64,000 bases of DNA from Sediminicola luteus (GTDB lineage Bacteria; Bacteroidota; Bacteroidia; Flavobacteriales; Flavobacteriaceae). Position numbers and translations under genes: made by a program. Location of the stretch: assembly GCF_002514735.1 (NCBI RefSeq), contig NZ_NBWU01000001.1:992001-1056000 (forward strand), in the 5' to 3' direction. Positions 3,016-64,000 of the stretch are shown here, piece after piece (positions within the stretch are counted from its first letter, which is position 1; each line of letters begins with the position of its first letter). Below the pieces are notes generated by a model. The model was not told the origin of the DNA and did no database searches. It saw only the letters and a program-made list of their open reading frames with translations.

Positions 3016-3146
3016 GGGCGGGCGGTTTTAGTATGAACAAGGTACTGATAATTGTTGAAAAGGTCGGTTTTAGAGTTCAGAATTCAGAATTAATGGATTC
3101 AAGTGGATGGCCGATAATAAAACACATGTACACCCAATAGGGCTAA

Positions 3147-3203
3147 CCCTCACCCCCCGCCCTCTCCTCCCGCCATTCCGCGGGACAGGCGCCAGAGAGG
3201 GAG
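3147..3203 (+). repeat. GC-rich palindromic repeat, copy R1 (long-loop form)
   Basis: Starts CCCTCACC and ends GAGAGGGAG, with the arms CCCTCTCC and GAGAGGG able to pair. The loop holds a second hairpin, TCCCGC...GCGGGA. Copies R2-R5 lie at 44267, 44454, 61971 and 62387. R1 and R3 share the nested hairpin. It sits in the 272-bp gap between DUF2007 and the 44-aa gene. Confidence 0.85.
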
Positions 3204-7341: not shown

Positions 7342-7671
7342 ATGATAAAAGTATCTGAAACAGCACGAAAAAAGGTAGTCTCCCTTATGGGCGAGGAAGG
7401 TTTCGATGCCCAAAACGACTATGTACGTGTAGGCGTTAAAAGTGGGGGTTGCAGCGGACTGTCGTACGAGCTTACCTTTGATAAAGAGGTGGCCGAGGCC
7501 GATAAGGTTTTTGAAGATAATACGGTACGTATCGTGGTAGATAAAAAGAGTTTTTTATACCTCGTAGGTACCACTTTGGAATATTCCGGAGGTTTGAATG
7601 GCAAAGGATTCGTTTTTAACAATCCGAATGCCCAGCGTACCTGCGGATGTGGCGAGAGTTTCTCGCTCTAA
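7342..7671 (+). CDS. sufA: A-type Fe-S cluster carrier (SufA/IscA/HesB family)
   Basis: A 109-residue carrier that accepts a cluster from the SufBCD scaffold and hands it to target apoproteins. The three conserved cysteines are visible: CSGLSYELTF in the middle and the C-terminal CGCGESFSL. Length is normal for the family. It opens the suf cluster and is 66 bases from sufB. The gap contains an AT-rich copy of the intergenic TTTGAAAAT-type repeat (about 7671-7737). The A-type family is certain; the choice of sufA over an IscA/ErpA name rests on context. Confidence 0.93.
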   Translation: MIKVSETARKKVVSLMGEEGFDAQNDYVRVGVKSGGCSGLSYELTFDKEVAEADKVFEDNTVRIVVDKKSFLYLVGTTLEYSGGLNGKGFVFNNPNAQRTCGCGESFSL

Positions 7672-7737
7672 TTTGACAATTTGAAAATGAGATAATCTGC
7701 CAATTGATACATTTTCAAATTGGTACATGGATGGGTT

Positions 7738-21261: not shown

Positions 21262-21667
21262 TTTCGTGTGGATTTAGTTTTTGGTAGGCGATAAAATACG
21301 GCTTATCGCAGCAAGGCGCAAGTTTGTTCGCTAGATGATAGTGGCTTGAACGAAATAGAACCTATACACCAAGGAACTAATCTGCAATAGCTGTTAAGAT
21401 TTATGGTGGAGAACACAAATAATGGGATGTCTCTTGACATAAATGACAACCCAAGGATTCAACAATTACTAAAACAAGTTATGAGTGAGGAGTTATAGGT
21501 TATGCCGATTAAACTAACTTTTTACCTCGAACATCGTACCTACCGCACTCATTTTCAAATCTTCAAATTAGCAAATTGCTACATTGTACATTAATGAATT
21601 GCTATATTAATACGAATTTCACGAATTTTTCCTTCGTAGCTTGTATTTCCCACTACGTATCCAGCCC
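21262..21667. repeat. Intergenic region with a reverse-orientation composite repeat
   Basis: About 21487-21632 carries, in reverse orientation, the composite repeat seen at 45.3 and 47.3 kb. It holds a TTATAGGTTATG block, a TCATTTTCAAATCTTCAAAT block, a CAAATTGCTACATTG block and a CGAATTTCACGAAT block. The inverted repeat GCGATAA...TTATCGC (21288-21309) is 27 bases upstream of the chitinase start and is a possible operator. No gene was found. Confidence 0.7.
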
Positions 21668-28785: not shown

Positions 28786-29314
28786 TATCATTTTATTATT
28801 GGTGTTATCCGAATAAAAGGCCCGAAAAGCCATTTCAAGTCACCACGATTTTGCACGAACCTTAAGCTGTTTGGTAAGTTTCTCAACCATTTGTGATGTG
28901 GGCTGTTACACAGAGTTTCACTGAGAAGCCACAGAGTTGCGCAGAGGTATTCTATCCCCAATTAAACTATTCAACACCTTCACGATTCATCAGTAATTAA
29001 TTTCTATCTGACACGAATTTCGCTAATTACTCGAATAATGGGGCTAATTTCCGACAGTTATTTTTCCAACTAAAAAATGAAGCTGTTTCACAGAGGTATT
29101 ACTTTGCCAATTCAATAAAACCAGGTTTTACCATTTTCAAATCTTCAAATTAACCCATTATCAAATTGCTTCATTGCTACATTGATTAATTGGTACATTG
29201 CCGCAGGCGTACACGAATTCCACGAATCTGCCCAGGGATTACCTGTTTTCAATTAAACGATGCAACTACTCAACGATTAAACAGCCGAATAAACAAGTTT
29301 AGACCGCTAAGCCC

Positions 29315-44264: not shown

Positions 44265-44266
44265 GG

Positions 44267-44302
44267 CCCTCACCCCCGGCCCCTCTCCCCAAGGGAGAGG
44301 GG
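44267..44302 (+). repeat. GC-rich palindromic repeat, copy R2 (short-loop form)
   Basis: CCCTCACCCCCGGCCCCTCTCCCC-type sequence ending GGGAGAGGGG; the arms CCCCTCTCCC and GGGAGAGGGG pair over a few-base loop. It is nearly identical to R4 read in reverse. It begins two bases after the VPS10-like gene's stop codon. Confidence 0.88.
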
Positions 44303-44305
44303 AGC

Positions 44306-44341: not shown

Positions 44342-44453
44342 GGTTTGCCAATACGTATGCGAATTCCGCTACAACTTGTCACACCGCAGACATGTTTAAT
44401 CTTGTACAAATCGTTAGTTGAAGGGCTTGTCAAGCAGATTTTTGGGCAGTCCG

Positions 44454-44513
44454 CCCTCACCCCCTGGCCCCCTCTCCTCCCGCCATTCCGCGGGACAGAC
44501 ACGGGAGAAGGGG
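44454..44513 (+). repeat. GC-rich palindromic repeat, copy R3 (long-loop form)
   Basis: CCCTCACCCCCTGGCC start, then CCCCTCTCC, a nested TCCCGC...GCGGGA hairpin shared with R1, and a GGGAGAAGGGG end. Same orientation as R1, R2 and R5. Confidence 0.85.
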
Positions 44514-45170: not shown

Positions 45171-45761
45171 GCTCGAAATTGGGTGTTGATGATTGCCGAT
45201 TGATTATTGTAGAATCGTTTAATTGTCATGTCGACGGAAGGAGACATCTCACTTTTTATGGAAAGCTGTAAAAGTCAATTTAAGAATGGGCCAATCTAAC
45301 GATGTAGCAATTTGACAATTTGAAGATTTGAAAATGAGTGGGGTAAGTATGATGTTTGAGGTACGAAGTTGGATCGGCATAACCCATAACCAGATTGTAT
45401 TCGTGTTTAGGGTTTTATCGTTCAATTTGTGATAGAATTCTCCGTGAAACTCCGTGTCTTCTCCGTGGGACTCTGTGCAACAGTTTTATTTTCAGGCCCT
45501 AATACGGTTCAAGAAAAACAACACAAAAATTCGTGTCAATTCGTGAAATTTGTGTCAGCTCGAGGCCATGTAACCATATACCCATAAATCAATGTAGCCA
45601 TTTGAAGATTTGAAAATAAGTCGAGAGTAGGTAGTGGGAGGTATTAAACTTTGCCAAGCCTTGTAACGTTTCAACTCCTTTATCGTTTTAATGAAAGATT
45701 TGGCCCGTCAAAAACGAGCTGAATCTGTTAGGTAATTCGACCAATAAAAATCTATCACCGA
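45171..45761 (+). repeat. 591-bp intergenic composite repeat block
   Basis: At 45229-45255 lies a half copy of the GTCATxTCGA...GAxATCTCA repeat. From about 45301 the composite unit runs in order: GCAATTTGACAATTTGAAGA, AAAATGAGT, an ATAACCCATAACC block, paired TCCGTGAAACTCCGTG and CTCTGTGCAA blocks (45440-45485), AATTCGTGAAATTTGTGTC (near 45538), and a second TTTGAAGATTTGAAAAT near 45602. No gene was found. Confidence 0.75.
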
Positions 45762-47132: not shown

Positions 47133-47994
47133 ACCTATCAATTCCCCGCAAAAATACGATAAATCCGACTTTAGAAATACCCGACAACCCCAAACCCGTT
47201 AAAAGGGTTTTGCTTTTAAGATAAGATTGGGAAAAAGAGTTTGAAAATTGACAATTGATGAGTGTTGATGGAGTATTATTGAGTCGGAATACAACCTGAA
47301 GGTTCGTGTTGCCTATGGCCATGTAACAATGTATCAATTATTCAATGTAGCGATGAAGCAATTTGATAATGGGTTGATTTGAAGATTTGAAAATGGGGGC
47401 GGGAAGTACGATTTTGGAATTACAAAGTGGGAAGTTTGTTGCGTCATAACCCATAACTCATTTGTTGAATTGGCCAAGCAGAACCTCCGTGAAACTCTGT
47501 GTATTCTCTGCGAAACTCTGTGAAACAACCACTTTTTATAGTTGGGAAAAAGCCTAACGATGGTTAAACCCATTTTTCGTGTAATTGGTGAAATTCGTGT
47601 CCATCTTATGCAAGGAAGCAATTTGATAATGGGTTAATTTGAAGATTTGAAAATGGGGGCGGGAAGTACGATTTTGGAATTACGAAATGGGAAGTTGTTG
47701 CGATATAACCCATAACTCGTTTGTTGAATTGGCCAAGCAGAACCACCGTGAAACTCTGTGTATTCTCTGCGAAACTCTGTGAAACAACCTCTTTTATAGT
47801 TATGAAAAAAACTGTTGGAGGTTAACTCCATTATTCGGGCAATTAGTGAAATTCGTATCCGCCTGCGGCAATGAAGCAATTTGATCATGGGTTGATTTGA
47901 AGATTTGAAAATACTCATAACTGGTTTAGTTGAGGCGCAGTTTCCCAAAGACAGACCCAATAAACCATAAACCCATCAAACTAAAAAACAACCC
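47133..47994 (-). repeat. 862-bp gap with tandem composite repeats of about 260 bp
   Basis: Two full units lie in tandem (47355-47614, 260 bp; 47615-47872, 258 bp) with a third partial unit from 47873 to about 47918. Each holds GAAGCAATTTGATAATGGGT, TTTGAAGATTTGAAAATGGG, GCGGGAAGTACGATTTTGGA, ATAACCCATAACTC, GAAACTCTGTGTATTCTCTG, GCGAAACTCTGTGAAACAAC and a TGAAATTCGT block. ORFs read across it are repeat artefacts. No gene was found. Confidence 0.88.
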
Positions 47995-59794: not shown

Positions 59795-61051
59795 ATGAAG
59801 GGTTACCATATATCCAGACATAATTCATTTTATACTATTGGCCTGAATTACAAAAAGGCCGATGCCGAGATTCGGGGGCAGTTCAGTCTATCCGAAACGG
59901 CCATAGATGCCTTGTTGACCGAGGCCCATCGTATGGGTATCGATGGCTTGTTGGTAACTTCGACCTGTAACCGTACCGAGTTACACGGTTTTGCCCAGCA
60001 TCCGTTCCAGTTGATTAAATTGCTCTGCGCCCATTCCAATGGTAGTGTAGAAGATTTCCAGGAAGTCGCTTATGTGTACAAAAACAACGATGCCATCAAT
60101 CATTTGTTCCGTGTGGGTACCGGACTCGATAGTCAGATTTTAGGTGATTTCGAAATCATTAGTCAGCTAAAACAGTCTTTTACCCGTTCCAAAAAACACG
60201 GCTTGGCCAATCCGTTTTTAGAGCGTTTGGTGAATTCGGTGATCCAGGCCAGTAAGCGTATTAAAAATGAGACCGAGATTTCCTCTGGGGCCACCTCGGT
60301 AAGTTTTGCCTCGGTACAATACATTTTGAAGAATGTAGATGCCGTGGCCGAAAAGGATATCCTCTTGTTCGGTACCGGAAAGATCGGCCGAAACACTTGT
60401 GAAAACCTGATAAAGCATACCAAGAATCCGAATATCACCTTGATTAACCGTACCAAGGAAAAAGCAGAAAAGGTGGCCGGAAAGTTCAATCTTTCCGTTA
60501 AGGATTATGGCGACCTGCAAAGCGAAATCCGTAATTCAGATATATTGGTCGTGGCCACAGGGGCCCAACAGCCTACGGTTTCCAAAGCCATTCTACATCC
60601 CAAAAAGCCTTTACTGATTTTGGATCTATCCATTCCTAAAAACGTATCGGACGATGTGGCCGAATTAGAGGGGGTTACCTTGGTACATATGGATCAATTG
60701 TCTAAAATGACCGATGAGACCCTGGCCCGTCGCAAGTCGTTTATCCCACAGGCCGAAGCCATCAATGCCGAGATCATAGCCGAATTTACCCAGTGGTTAG
60801 AAACCCGGAAATTCGCCCCGGTAATCAAGGCACTAAAACAAAAATTGACCACCCTAAAGGCCGAGGAACTGGACTTTCAGTCGAAAAAACTGAACGATTT
60901 CAACGAACACCAGGCCGAGGTTATCTCGAACCGTTTGATACAAAAGATAACCACCCAATTCGCCAACCACCTCAAGGGCAACGGAAACGATGCCGACGCC
61001 AGTTTGGAACTTATCCAGCAGGTTTTCCAGTTAGAAATAGAAAAACGATGA
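59795..61051 (+). CDS. hemA: Glutamyl-tRNA reductase HemA
   Basis: A 418-residue enzyme making glutamate-1-semialdehyde from Glu-tRNA, the first step of the C5 heme pathway. Features are the catalytic Cys58 in VTSTCNRTELHG, FRVGTGLDSQILGDFEI, then the NADPH domain with LLFGTGKIGRNT and NITLINRTKEKAEKVAGKF, and a C-terminal dimerisation helix. It overlaps hemC by four bases (ATGA). First gene of hemA-C-D-E. Confidence 0.97.
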   Translation: MKGYHISRHNSFYTIGLNYKKADAEIRGQFSLSETAIDALLTEAHRMGIDGLLVTSTCNRTELHGFAQHPFQLIKLLCAHSNGSVEDFQEVAYVYKNNDAINHLFRVGTGLDSQILGDFEIISQLKQSFTRSKKHGLANPFLERLVNSVIQASKRIKNETEISSGATSVSFASVQYILKNVDAVAEKDILLFGTGKIGRNTCENLIKHTKNPNITLINRTKEKAEKVAGKFNLSVKDYGDLQSEIRNSDILVVATGAQQPTVSKAILHPKKPLLILDLSIPKNVSDDVAELEGVTLVHMDQLSKMTDETLARRKSFIPQAEAINAEIIAEFTQWLETRKFAPVIKALKQKLTTLKAEELDFQSKKLNDFNEHQAEVISNRLIQKITTQFANHLKGNGNDADASLELIQQVFQLEIEKR

Positions 61052-61962
61052 GCAAGACCATACGCATAGGCACCCGCGACAGCGAGTTGGCCTTATGGCA
61101 AGCACATACCGTTCAAGGCCGTTTACAGGCCTTGGGCTATGCTACCGAATTGATGCCCGTAAAATCGCAAGGCGATATTATTCTCGATAAACCCCTTTAT
61201 GAACTGGGTATTACCGGGATTTTCACCAAGACCCTCGATATTGCCATGATCCAAGGGCAAATCGATATCGCTGTACATTCCATGAAAGACGTACCCACAG
61301 CCTTGCCAAAAGGCATTATACAGGGTGCTGTTCTGGAGCGGGCCCGTACGGCCGATATTTTAGTGCACAAAGGCTTAGGGTTTTTAAACGGAGACGGTAC
61401 CATTGCCACCGGAAGTCTAAGGCGAAAGGCCCAATGGTTGCACCGTTACCCTGGCCATAAGGTTGAAGACTTACGTGGCAATGTGAACACCCGTATGCGT
61501 AAATTGGAGGAAAACGATTGGAACGGAGCCATTTTCGCCGCTGCCGGTCTAGAGCGTATCGATCTACTCCCAGAAAATTACGAGACCTTGGATTGGATGG
61601 TTCCTGCACCCGCGCAAGGGGCCATGGTAGTGGCCGTAAATGAAGCCGACGGCTATGCCAGAAAAGCGGTGGCACAACTGAACCATAGCGATACGGAAAT
61701 CTGTACCCAGATCGAACGCGAATTCTTGAGGGAATTGGAAGGAGGTTGTACCGCACCCATTGGCGCTTTGGCCACGGTTAATGGAGATCAGATCCATTTT
61801 ACCGGGGTACTCTTTTCCTTGGATGGCACCCAAAAAGTGGGAATCGAAAAGCAAATTAAACACCACGAAGCCACTGGATTTGGAAAGGCCTGTGCTCAAG
61901 AAGTATTGACCCAAGGGGGTAAAGCCCTTATGACGGAGATTAAAAAGACCTTGAATACTTAA
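61048..61962 (+). CDS. hemC: Hydroxymethylbilane synthase HemC
   Basis: A 304-residue enzyme polymerising four porphobilinogens. The dipyrromethane-binding Cys234 is in LEGGCTAPIGAL. Arginine-rich substrate motifs TGSLRRKAQ and DLRGNVNTR, and GAGLER-like AAAGLERIDLL are present. The start is the ATG overlapping the hemA stop; an in-frame extension back into hemA to 60793 is non-homologous and rejected. Only eight bases separate its stop from the inserted repeat R4. Confidence 0.97.
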   Translation: MSKTIRIGTRDSELALWQAHTVQGRLQALGYATELMPVKSQGDIILDKPLYELGITGIFTKTLDIAMIQGQIDIAVHSMKDVPTALPKGIIQGAVLERARTADILVHKGLGFLNGDGTIATGSLRRKAQWLHRYPGHKVEDLRGNVNTRMRKLEENDWNGAIFAAAGLERIDLLPENYETLDWMVPAPAQGAMVVAVNEADGYARKAVAQLNHSDTEICTQIEREFLRELEGGCTAPIGALATVNGDQIHFTGVLFSLDGTQKVGIEKQIKHHEATGFGKACAQEVLTQGGKALMTEIKKTLNT

Positions 61963-61970
61963 TATTTCCG

Positions 61971-62008
61971 CTCCCCTCTCCCTGTGGGAGAGGGGCCGGG
62001 GGTGAGGG
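61971..62008 (-). repeat. GC-rich palindromic repeat, copy R4 (left border of the DUF559 unit)
   Basis: Reads CTCCCCTCTCCC, a short loop, GGGAGAGGGGCC, then GGGGGTGAGGG; its reverse complement is almost identical to R2. It faces R5 across the DUF559 coding region. Confidence 0.9.
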
Positions 62009-62013
62009 CAAGC

Positions 62014-63090
62014 ATGCGATATAGAACCCAAATAGCAAGAAAGTTAAGGCAAGAACAAACCCAAGCTGAGCAACACCTTTGGGAATACCTACGCAACCGG
62101 AATTTTAGAGGACTTAAATTCCGAAGACAACATCCTTTAAAACAATATATCGTAGATTTCTTTTGCCATTCCCATGGCATTATAATTGAATTGGATGGTG
62201 GATATCATAAAAGGGGCGATGTGGCAAAACAAGATTATGCCCGCGACTTCCATTTAGAAGAATTAGGATATAAGGTTTTGCGATATAGGAACCATATGGT
62301 GTATAACGAACCCCACCATATTCTAAACGATTTGAAAAGAGCGGTAAGGCAGCAAAAAAAATATGCGCAACATAAAAAGCAAACCACCCTCACCCCTAAC
62401 CCCTCTCCCGGAGGTAGAGGGGAATCGGAGATCATTCTCTCAACCAAAACCCTTTCCCAATCGGATCGGGAACGGCTGCTTCAGGCTGGGGTACGTTTGG
62501 TCAGCTATGATGCCATTAGCATTTCACCCCTTGATTTTCAGTCCGCCAAGGTAATACCCCATGCGATCGTGACCAGCAAGAATGCAGCCCGATTGGTGTT
62601 AGAAAAAGGTATCCAAGTGGGAAACTGGTACTGTGTGGGTGATAAAACCCAATCCTTTTTAGCCAAAAAAGGGCAACAAGTGGTAGAAAAAGCCCAAAAT
62701 GCATTCGATTTGGCCCAACGGATCATAAAGGGCTATCATCAAAATAAGTTGGTGTTCTTTTGCGGACAAAGTCGGCGTGATGAATTGCCAAACGAATTGA
62801 AAAAGGCCCATATTCCGTTCGAGGAAATCGTAGTATATCGCACACAATTGATACCCAAAAAATTCAACCAAACGTTCTACGGCATATTGTTTTACAGTCC
62901 ATCCGGAGTACGTTCTTTTACTACAAAAAACAAGCTGGAAAGCCCTACCTTTGCCTTTTGCATTGGCCAGACCACGGCCCAAGAGGCAAAAAAATATACC
63001 GATAAGATTATTGTAGCCAAACAGTCCACGGTATCCCATACCGTAGCCAGTACGGCCCAACATATTAGAAATACGAGTACATGGAACTAA
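62014..63090 (+). CDS. hemD: DUF559 endonuclease fused in frame to uroporphyrinogen-III synthase (HemD)
   Basis: A 358-residue fusion. Residues 1-115 are a DUF559/Vsr-like nuclease domain, with the PD-(D/E)xK-type pattern [21 protein letters not shown] (Asp48, Glu59, Asp61, His65) and later [10 protein letters not shown]. Residues about 126-138 come from repeat R5 ([13 protein letters not shown]). Residues about 139-358 are HemD, opening [10 protein letters not shown] and including [35 protein letters not shown] and [13 protein letters not shown]. HemD cyclises hydroxymethylbilane. Its own start codon is gone: no ATG, GTG or TTG is in frame near the junction. An in-frame GTG at 61984 lies in R4 and is less likely than this ATG. 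Confidence 0.88.
62387..62422 (+). repeat. GC-rich palindromic repeat, copy R5 (right border of the DUF559 unit)
   Basis: CCCTCACCCCTAACCCCTCT, then CCCGGAGGTAGAGGGG. It is translated in frame and joins the nuclease to HemD. The GGAGG inside could by chance act as a ribosome-binding site, but no start codon follows. Confidence 0.85.
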
Positions 63091-64000
63091 AGAATGACCT
63101 TTTTTTACGTGCCCTAAAGGGTGAAACGGTAGAGCGACCACCGGTATGGATGATGCGCCAAGCCGGGCGTTACTTGCCCGAGTTTATGGAATTGAAACAT
63201 AAATACGACTTCTTTACCCGTTGCCAAACCCCAGAGCTGGCTTCCGAGATTACGGTACAGCCCATTCGTAGGTACGGCATGGATGCTGCTATTTTGTTCA
63301 GCGATATTTTGGTCATTCCGCAAGCCATGAACATAGAAGTTGAAATGAAACCCAATTTTGGACCCTATTTACCCAACCCCATCCGTTCCCAGGCCGATGT
63401 AGACCGTATTCAGGAAGTTGATATCGACGCCACTTTGGGCTATGTGATGGATGCCATAGACATGACCAAAGAAAAATTGGCAGGGGAAGTGCCTTTGATC
63501 GGCTTTGCCGGATCGCCATGGACTATCTTGTGCTACTGTGTACAAGGCCAAGGTTCCAAAAATTTCGATAAGGCCAAGGAGTTCTGTTTTACCCAACCAC
63601 TGGCCGCCCATGCCTTGCTGCAAAAAATTACCGATACCACCATTGCCTATCTAAAGCAAAAAGTGGCCCACGGGGTAAATGCCGTACAGGTTTTTGATAG
63701 TTGGGGCGGCATGTTATCGCCCACCGATTATACCGAATTTTCTTGGCAGTACATCAACCAGATCGTAGAGGCCTTGGCCGATGAGACCGAGGTTATCGTA
63801 TTCGGTAAAGGTTGCTGGTTCGCTTTGGGCGATATGGCCAAAAGTAGGGCGTCTGCCCTTGGGGTAGACTGGACCTGCTCCCCTAAAAACGCCCGTTATT
63901 TGACCGGTGGCAATATTACCCTTCAAGGTAATTTTGATCCTACCCGATTATTATCACCACCCGCTACCATTAAAAAAATGGTAAAAGAAATGATCGACGC
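63081..64000 (+). CDS. hemE: Uroporphyrinogen decarboxylase HemE, 3' end cut off
   Basis: The first 306 of about 341 residues. Uroporphyrinogen-III is decarboxylated to coproporphyrinogen-III. The signature [17 protein letters not shown] is intact, with [39 protein letters not shown] and the C-terminal GNFDPTRLL. The ATG overlaps the last ten bases of the HemD fusion, so translation of HemD and HemE is coupled. It continues beyond the window. Confidence 0.97.

Follow-up and report, generated by a model that had tools for sequence, protein, structure and literature searches.

A DUF559–HemD fusion lies downstream of hemC

The window, that is, the whole 64,000-nucleotide stretch of DNA analyzed here, carries a DUF559 nuclease domain between hemC and hemD, bordered by the inverse palindromic repeats R4 and R5 (Table 1). 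In the first-pass annotation the nuclease was a gene of its own, inserted between hemC and hemD, but its frame is continuous with hemD. The open frame (61984–63090) encodes 368 amino acids from an upstream GTG and crosses R5 without a stop, and Pfam places both DUF559 (residues 14–121) and HEM4 (residues 167–354) within it. Counted from the ATG at 62014, the fusion protein has 358 amino acids, and its linker is the translated palindrome R5. In the AlphaFold2 model of the fusion (mean pLDDT 92.5), two confident domains are joined by linker residues 126–135, the sole segment below 50. Because no ATG, GTG or TTG occurs among the 22 codons inspected from R5 to ILSTK, the conserved residues at which HemD begins, HemD is probably produced as a DUF559–HemD fusion; re-initiation at a rare ATT may be an alternative to a fusion-only product. 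The DUF559 element in front of hemD has apparently replaced the HemD start region.

Table 1. Coordinates of the repeats and genes described in the window
Feature	Position	Strand	Basis and remarks
R1, solo repeat copy, longer loop variant	3146..3201		Repeat comparison
R2, solo repeat copy	44266..44305	+	Repeat comparison; 95% complementary to R4
R3, solo repeat copy, longer loop variant like R1	44453..44511	+	Repeat comparison
hemC (hydroxymethylbilane synthase)	61048..61962	+	ORF list and sequence; TAA end just 5′ of R4
R4, left border repeat	61970..62009	-	Hairpin CCCCTCTCCC-TGT-GGGAGAGGGG and inward-facing head CCGGGGGTGAGGGC
DUF559 nuclease part of fusion ORF	62014..62385	+	Start ATG 62014; predicted catalytic D48, E59, D61; Pfam
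R5, right border repeat, inverse of R4	62386..62422	+	In-frame translation gives a 13-residue linker
HemD (uroporphyrinogen-III synthase) part of fusion ORF	62423..63090	+	Pfam HEM4 1e-26

The same DUF559–hemD fusion was found in eight relatives. A comparison of hemC–hemD junctions, suggested in the first-pass annotation, showed that empty sites exist and that the insertion is not common to all relatives: at loci L035 and L039, for example, hemD stands directly behind hemC. One fusion (L105) has retained an ATG immediately 3′ of the palindrome. In another HemD fusion (L100, 1939–2970), the catalytic E is changed to K (VMIKLDG); the nuclease is possibly dead there, and HemD is still fused.

The border hairpins belong to a dispersed repeat family

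R4 and R5 had been described as inverse copies of one GC-rich palindromic repeat, and complementarity, folding and a chance test agree with that description. Positions 44266–44305 and 61970–62009 form an inverted pair, and the copies at 3146, 44266, 44453 and 62386 make up one repeat group. When single-stranded DNA folding was compared with that of shuffles, the z value was -2.4 for R4, -2.3 for solo copy R2 (at 44266) and a weaker -0.8 for R5. The heads CCCTCACCCC of R4 and R5 face inwards, and all repeat copies are ordered from head to hairpin. The 22-nt core pattern has 10 exact matches in the genome, and 35 with at most three mismatches vs 12 for a reversed-pattern control. Since these matches are few and only 0.004 inverted pairs within 450 nt of each other are expected among 10 random sites, the pairing of R4 and R5 is not due to chance. 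The three solo copies listed earlier (R1–R3) are present in the window, but the family extends over the genome and exceeds the five copies then counted.

A second related repeat type, CCCCCTAACCCCC.., has nine copies in the window genome, and no DUF559 element bordered by this type was found there; these copies may have been left behind by an element since lost. Of 120 genomes, 13 had solo repeats of the CCCCCNANCCCCC / CCCCCNANCCCCCNAAGGGGG type, and the control matched once overall. A strong DUF559 match was present in 11 of the 13 genomes with CCCCCNANCCCCCNAAGGGGG vs 33 of the 107 others (Fisher p=2.7e-4; counts tallied by hand from genome-wide match lists). The window also holds another dispersed family, ATTTGAAGATTTGAAAATG with CTCCGTGAAACTCTGTG blocks, whose copies lie in both orientations (7668–7730, 21492–21587, 29010–29227, 45278–45621 and 47321–47933).

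Family, fold and selection of the nuclease domain

The nuclease-like ORF with D48 and E59-x-D61 had been read correctly, provided that residues are counted from the ATG at 62014. It matches Pfam DUF559 (PF04480) with E=6e-36 and 123 bits against a curated cut-off of 20.6, and E19, W23, D48, F49, E59, D61, G62, D74 and R90 are invariant across 29 aligned DUF559 domains. The AF2 model of the domain (pLDDT 87.7; structure predictions were run without plasmid-derived alignment rows) matches NGO0050 (3hrl), the catalytic domain of I-Bth0305I (3r3p; HMM E=5e-7, Foldseek E=3e-4) and Vsr (1cw0). The domain is thus predicted, from model and sequence, to have an EDxHD/Vsr-like PD-(D/E)XK fold with the active-site D..ExD present. 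DUF559 has been placed in the EDxHD family (PMC9403480), and the SOS response of Caulobacter methyltransferase mutants needs VsrA, a DUF559 protein (PMC12907096). The PADLOC hits were all weak and were to homing endonuclease, mREase and DpdF models. For DUF559 pairs with finite dS, dN/dS ranged from 0.03 to 0.26, the lowest values being rough with dS near saturation; the ratios point to purifying selection on the nuclease.

Vsr, YcjD, NGO0050 and Caulobacter VsrA share this fold, the last three belong to the same family, and standalone copies are often hairpin-bordered. Unlike the element considered here, these proteins are described as mismatch-repair-like or uncharacterized nucleases, and no role in a mobile element was found for them in the open-licence literature.

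DUF559 is fused in frame to many host proteins

The first-pass annotation lacked the key feature of the domain, its in-frame fusion to HemD and numerous other host proteins. DUF559 was present in 143 of 299 genomes of the window's family, and the matches listed for that family include 44 fusions with frames of at least 346 aa. From sequence motifs and Pfam, the hosts were identified as LeuS (in an editing-domain loop), MetH, RecG, IleS, HemD and HisD (C-terminal). Other Bacteroidota added HemF, HisF, RNase H, PurL, a methylmalonyl-CoA mutase fusion protein, a UvrD-type helicase, N-formylglutamate amidohydrolase, an M23 peptidase, HsdR, HsdM, and Type ISP, Eco57I-type and N4/N6 methylases. Across relatives, about 18 protein families besides HemD carry the domain. 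The fused domains are flanked by PSPxGRG-like peptides, which are palindromes translated in frame, and the insertion points are variable loops or termini of the host proteins. The related-locus search of genome contigs gave four loci, one of which (L096) is probably not DUF559.

Hairpins flank DUF559 domains on both sides

Borders were scored as hairpins of at least 20 within 130 nt of the domain on each side, with other windows of the same loci as controls. In the window's family, hairpins were found at 13/44 left and 13/44 right flanks of fusions, and at 20/46 and 26/46 flanks of standalone genes. The corresponding counts in other Bacteroidota were 24/30 and 21/30 for fusions and 7/16 and 12/16 for standalone genes. 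Overall, the rate per side in Bacteroidota was about 28–80%, depending on the group, vs 0.8–2.6% in control windows. The hairpins flank the domain on both sides and are gone farther out. Many fusions of the window's family have shorter CCCCC-AAA-GGGGG stems, which fall below the cut-off of 20. A comparison of left and right flank sequences had been tried as a border detector and was replaced by hairpin scoring; it under-detected borders because hairpin arms co-vary and remain palindromic.

The expectation that DUF559 genes of relatives carry inverse CCCTCACC repeats was borne out for flanking hairpins, which most of those examined have, but exact CCCTCACC is confined to some genomes. Border repeats of the same architecture read AGCCCCCC.. 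or CCCCCTAACCCCC.. in other genomes. DUF559 genes lacking the repeats, which had been named as evidence against the proposal, form a minority: no flanking hairpin was found, for example, at L002 (in the window's own genome), E. coli L254 and L136. Head polarity also varies. Among HemD units, whose nucleases form one clade, the heads point inward in the window, L101, L102 and L108 and outward in L068, L080 and L086, and a simple terminal-recognition model does not account for this mixture.

Empty, filled and scarred sites

Among the RecG loci examined, 66 were empty, 14 filled and 13 scarred. In scars L290 and L315, the left repeat head is fused in frame to the right repeat end, and some other RecG "scars" are too worn for recognition as palindrome remains. 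Within one genus, six genomes were filled, three to four scarred and the remainder mostly empty. A filled and an empty RecG locus (L309 and L318) share 89% identical flanking DNA; the insert lies between AAA and GTT codons and replaces 6 nt, and no target-site duplication was seen in this single RecG pair. The metH gene of genome G237 contains two copies of the unit (418 bp, gapless alignment, 82.5% identical, dN/dS 0.028), and both end exactly at the palindrome tips, AGCC...GGCT.

The earlier proposal of a mobile unit made up of the nuclease and the palindromes at its borders is supported by the empty hemC–hemD junctions, the scars and the duplicated metH unit. It had further been proposed that solo copies are remnants or were moved in trans. 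The RecG scars show that at least some short copies are products of internal deletion; movement in trans has only indirect support, from the co-occurrence of solo copies with DUF559.

At the insertion site, LeuS loci without the insert span 31 residues, or as many as 39 in a few cases, vs about 160–230 in carriers, and LeuS of the window genome is an empty site. At the DUF559 loop of LeuS loci L173, L189–L194 and L198, nuclease-free in-frame repeats, for example of the GTCATTCCGAACTTGTTTCGGAATCTC and CACCCTGAGCGCAGTCGAAGGGTCTC types, are present, and by sequence several palindrome families appear to have landed in this loop. LeuS of genomes G002 and G136 (L199 and L200) carries a long insert (~145–150 residues) at this site; palindrome peptides are not evident in the insert, which may be a highly diverged DUF559.

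Distribution and phylogeny

On the LeuS host tree, the presence of DUF559 needs 15 changes vs 16.3 for shuffled labels, so that it is as scattered as random labels. Conflict between host and element trees was supported by two AU tests (p 0.003 and 0.0005), and in a third the constraint was not rejected (p=0.118); the constraints forced host clades to stay together on the element tree or element clades on the host tree, with groups picked after the trees had been viewed. In a tree of 151 domains, the LeuS, MetH, RecG and IleS copies form one clade (SH-aLRT 98), and the HemD (9/9) and HemF copies form separate clades (SH-aLRT 99 each). The host label changes 18 times on this tree vs 71.6 times when shuffled. 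The patchy, site-specific presence and the tree conflict would fit a homing endonuclease gene. Long-standing vertical inheritance, accompanied by many losses, could account for some of the patchiness because the host-site lineages are mostly single clades.

Interpretation of the element and alternative explanations

The element is characterized at the sequence level by its anatomy, in-frame fusions, empty sites, scars, one exact-ended duplicated unit, a patchy distribution and purifying selection. We consider it likely to be a homing-type nuclease element with inverted REP-like hairpin ends that resides in frame, and non-spliced, in host proteins. The nuclease would recognize the hairpins and cut or nick its target, and repair would copy the element into the break, the hairpin ends delimiting the copied stretch. 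Because its borders and ORF are readable in frame, the element could form an additional domain within a host protein and be tolerated there. The palindromes would encode flexible linkers holding DUF559, no splicing would occur in vivo, and selection would retain only right-frame insertions in tolerant loops or termini. The fidelity of sub-lineages to their sites (LeuS, MetH, RecG, HemD and HemF) suggests homing from genome to genome at one and the same gene, which would keep gene-specific lineages. Internal deletion between the palindromes would lead to loss with short in-frame scars, and the remaining short copies may be mobilized in trans.

An improbable alternative is ancient domain acquisition, in which DUF559, as a useful nuclease or DNA-binding domain, was gained once per host protein and inherited vertically while ordinary REPs accumulated in the linkers. 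The strong purifying selection and the nearly monophyletic HemD, HemF, MetH and RecG labels on the DUF559 tree agree with it, and fusions with restriction-modification proteins could be functional. The hosts, however, are functionally unrelated (heme, leucine tRNA charging, methionine, riboflavin, histidine and purine), copies from different hosts cluster together, and DUF559 presence in LeuS is unclustered on the host tree. The two sister copies within one metH, the occurrence of filled, scarred and empty RecG sites in a single genus and the conserved catalytic residues also speak against this alternative.

We give still less credence to the idea that a Y1 (TnpA-REP) transposase encoded elsewhere in the genome moves the palindromes, with DUF559 as a passenger between two REPs. 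Three Y1_Tnp genes in the window genome and the REP-like repeat architecture (an asymmetric head and a hairpin, often in inverted pairs) would fit such a process, but the genes found between the repeats are DUF559. This explanation is weakened because no Y1_Tnp match occurs in G023 or G027, which contain 41 and 10 repeat copies, respectively, and because none of these repeats lies within about 1.5 kb of the ten Y1_Tnp loci fetched. Least probable, with only a very slight chance, is an intein- or intron-like insert that is removed after translation or transcription, so that the host proteins are not truly fused. In-frame insertion in conserved enzymes and kinship with the intron-encoded I-Bth0305I recall such elements. 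Against this, a Pfam scan of the window fusion and 17 other fusions found no Hint, intein or splicing domain, and Rfam gave no match over 60800–63300 at E up to 1, i.e., no group I/II intron RNA structure. The insertions lie in variable loops or termini, and the scars add residues to the protein.

Comparison with known systems

The resemblance to REP sequences and their RAYT enzymes noted in the first-pass annotation holds: hairpin repeats with an asymmetric head are dispersed in many solo copies, and inverse copies border the enzyme gene. In contrast to RAYT, a Y1 HUH transposase, the enzyme here is a PD-(D/E)XK nuclease, and its gene lies in frame inside host proteins. The GTAG/CGTC tag was not identified at the heads, which by inspection read CCCTCACCCC or AGCCCC. 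REPs can occur inside ORFs, and Rickettsia palindromic elements (RPEs) are palindromes inserted in frame in functional proteins (PMC3733652). A palindrome is likewise in frame in the host ORF here (the R5 linker and the LeuS and RecG examples), but RPEs lack an enzyme gene, whereas a nuclease domain of ~105 aa lies between the palindromes here. EDxHD homing endonucleases (I-Bth0305I) and free-standing homing endonuclease genes share the homologous catalytic domain and the site-specific, patchy, selfish-looking distribution. They differ in that no intron or intein was found here, the borders are REP-like palindromes and the domain is apparently permanent and in frame in its host. Inteins also place a homing-type nuclease in frame in conserved enzymes; the element here has no splicing domain, and its loss leaves scars.

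No earlier description of a palindrome-bordered, nuclease-coding element in frame in host proteins was found in the open-licence literature. We see an even chance that it represents a distinct class of bacterial mobile element, in which a homing-type nuclease with REP-like ends persists as a translated, non-splicing domain of housekeeping proteins and seeds REP-like repeats while moving or decaying. Such an element would be costly to remove because a deletion must preserve the frame. REPs inside genes and in-frame RPEs are already known, and the nuclease-coding in-frame unit may be a variant of mobile palindromic or homing elements, with a separate class being possible. If this interpretation is correct, RAYTs would no longer be the only enzyme class tied to REP-like repeats, the widespread but functionally uncharacterized DUF559 family would gain a role, and selfish DNA would have a route to persist inside essential proteins without splicing. 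The entry of new domains or loops into conserved enzymes also becomes testable in RecG, where alleles of all three states (empty, filled and scarred) exist at one site and several of them are found in one genus.

DUF559 loci outside Bacteroidota

The breadth beyond Bacteroidota is represented by a few loci (L094, L095 and L248–L258), with riboflavin synthase as the host in Peregrinibacteria. In the small non-Bacteroidota set, hairpins were found at 5/13 left and 6/13 right flanks, with 6.6% in controls, which is a weaker signal. On cyanobacterial plasmids (L251 and L255), standalone DUF559 genes have a DUF1156 gene and a BREX PglX methyltransferase gene as neighbors, which is a defence-island context. 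On two Deinococcus plasmids (L253 and L257), the DUF559 gene occupies differing positions in the hpa (4-hydroxyphenylacetate) cluster.
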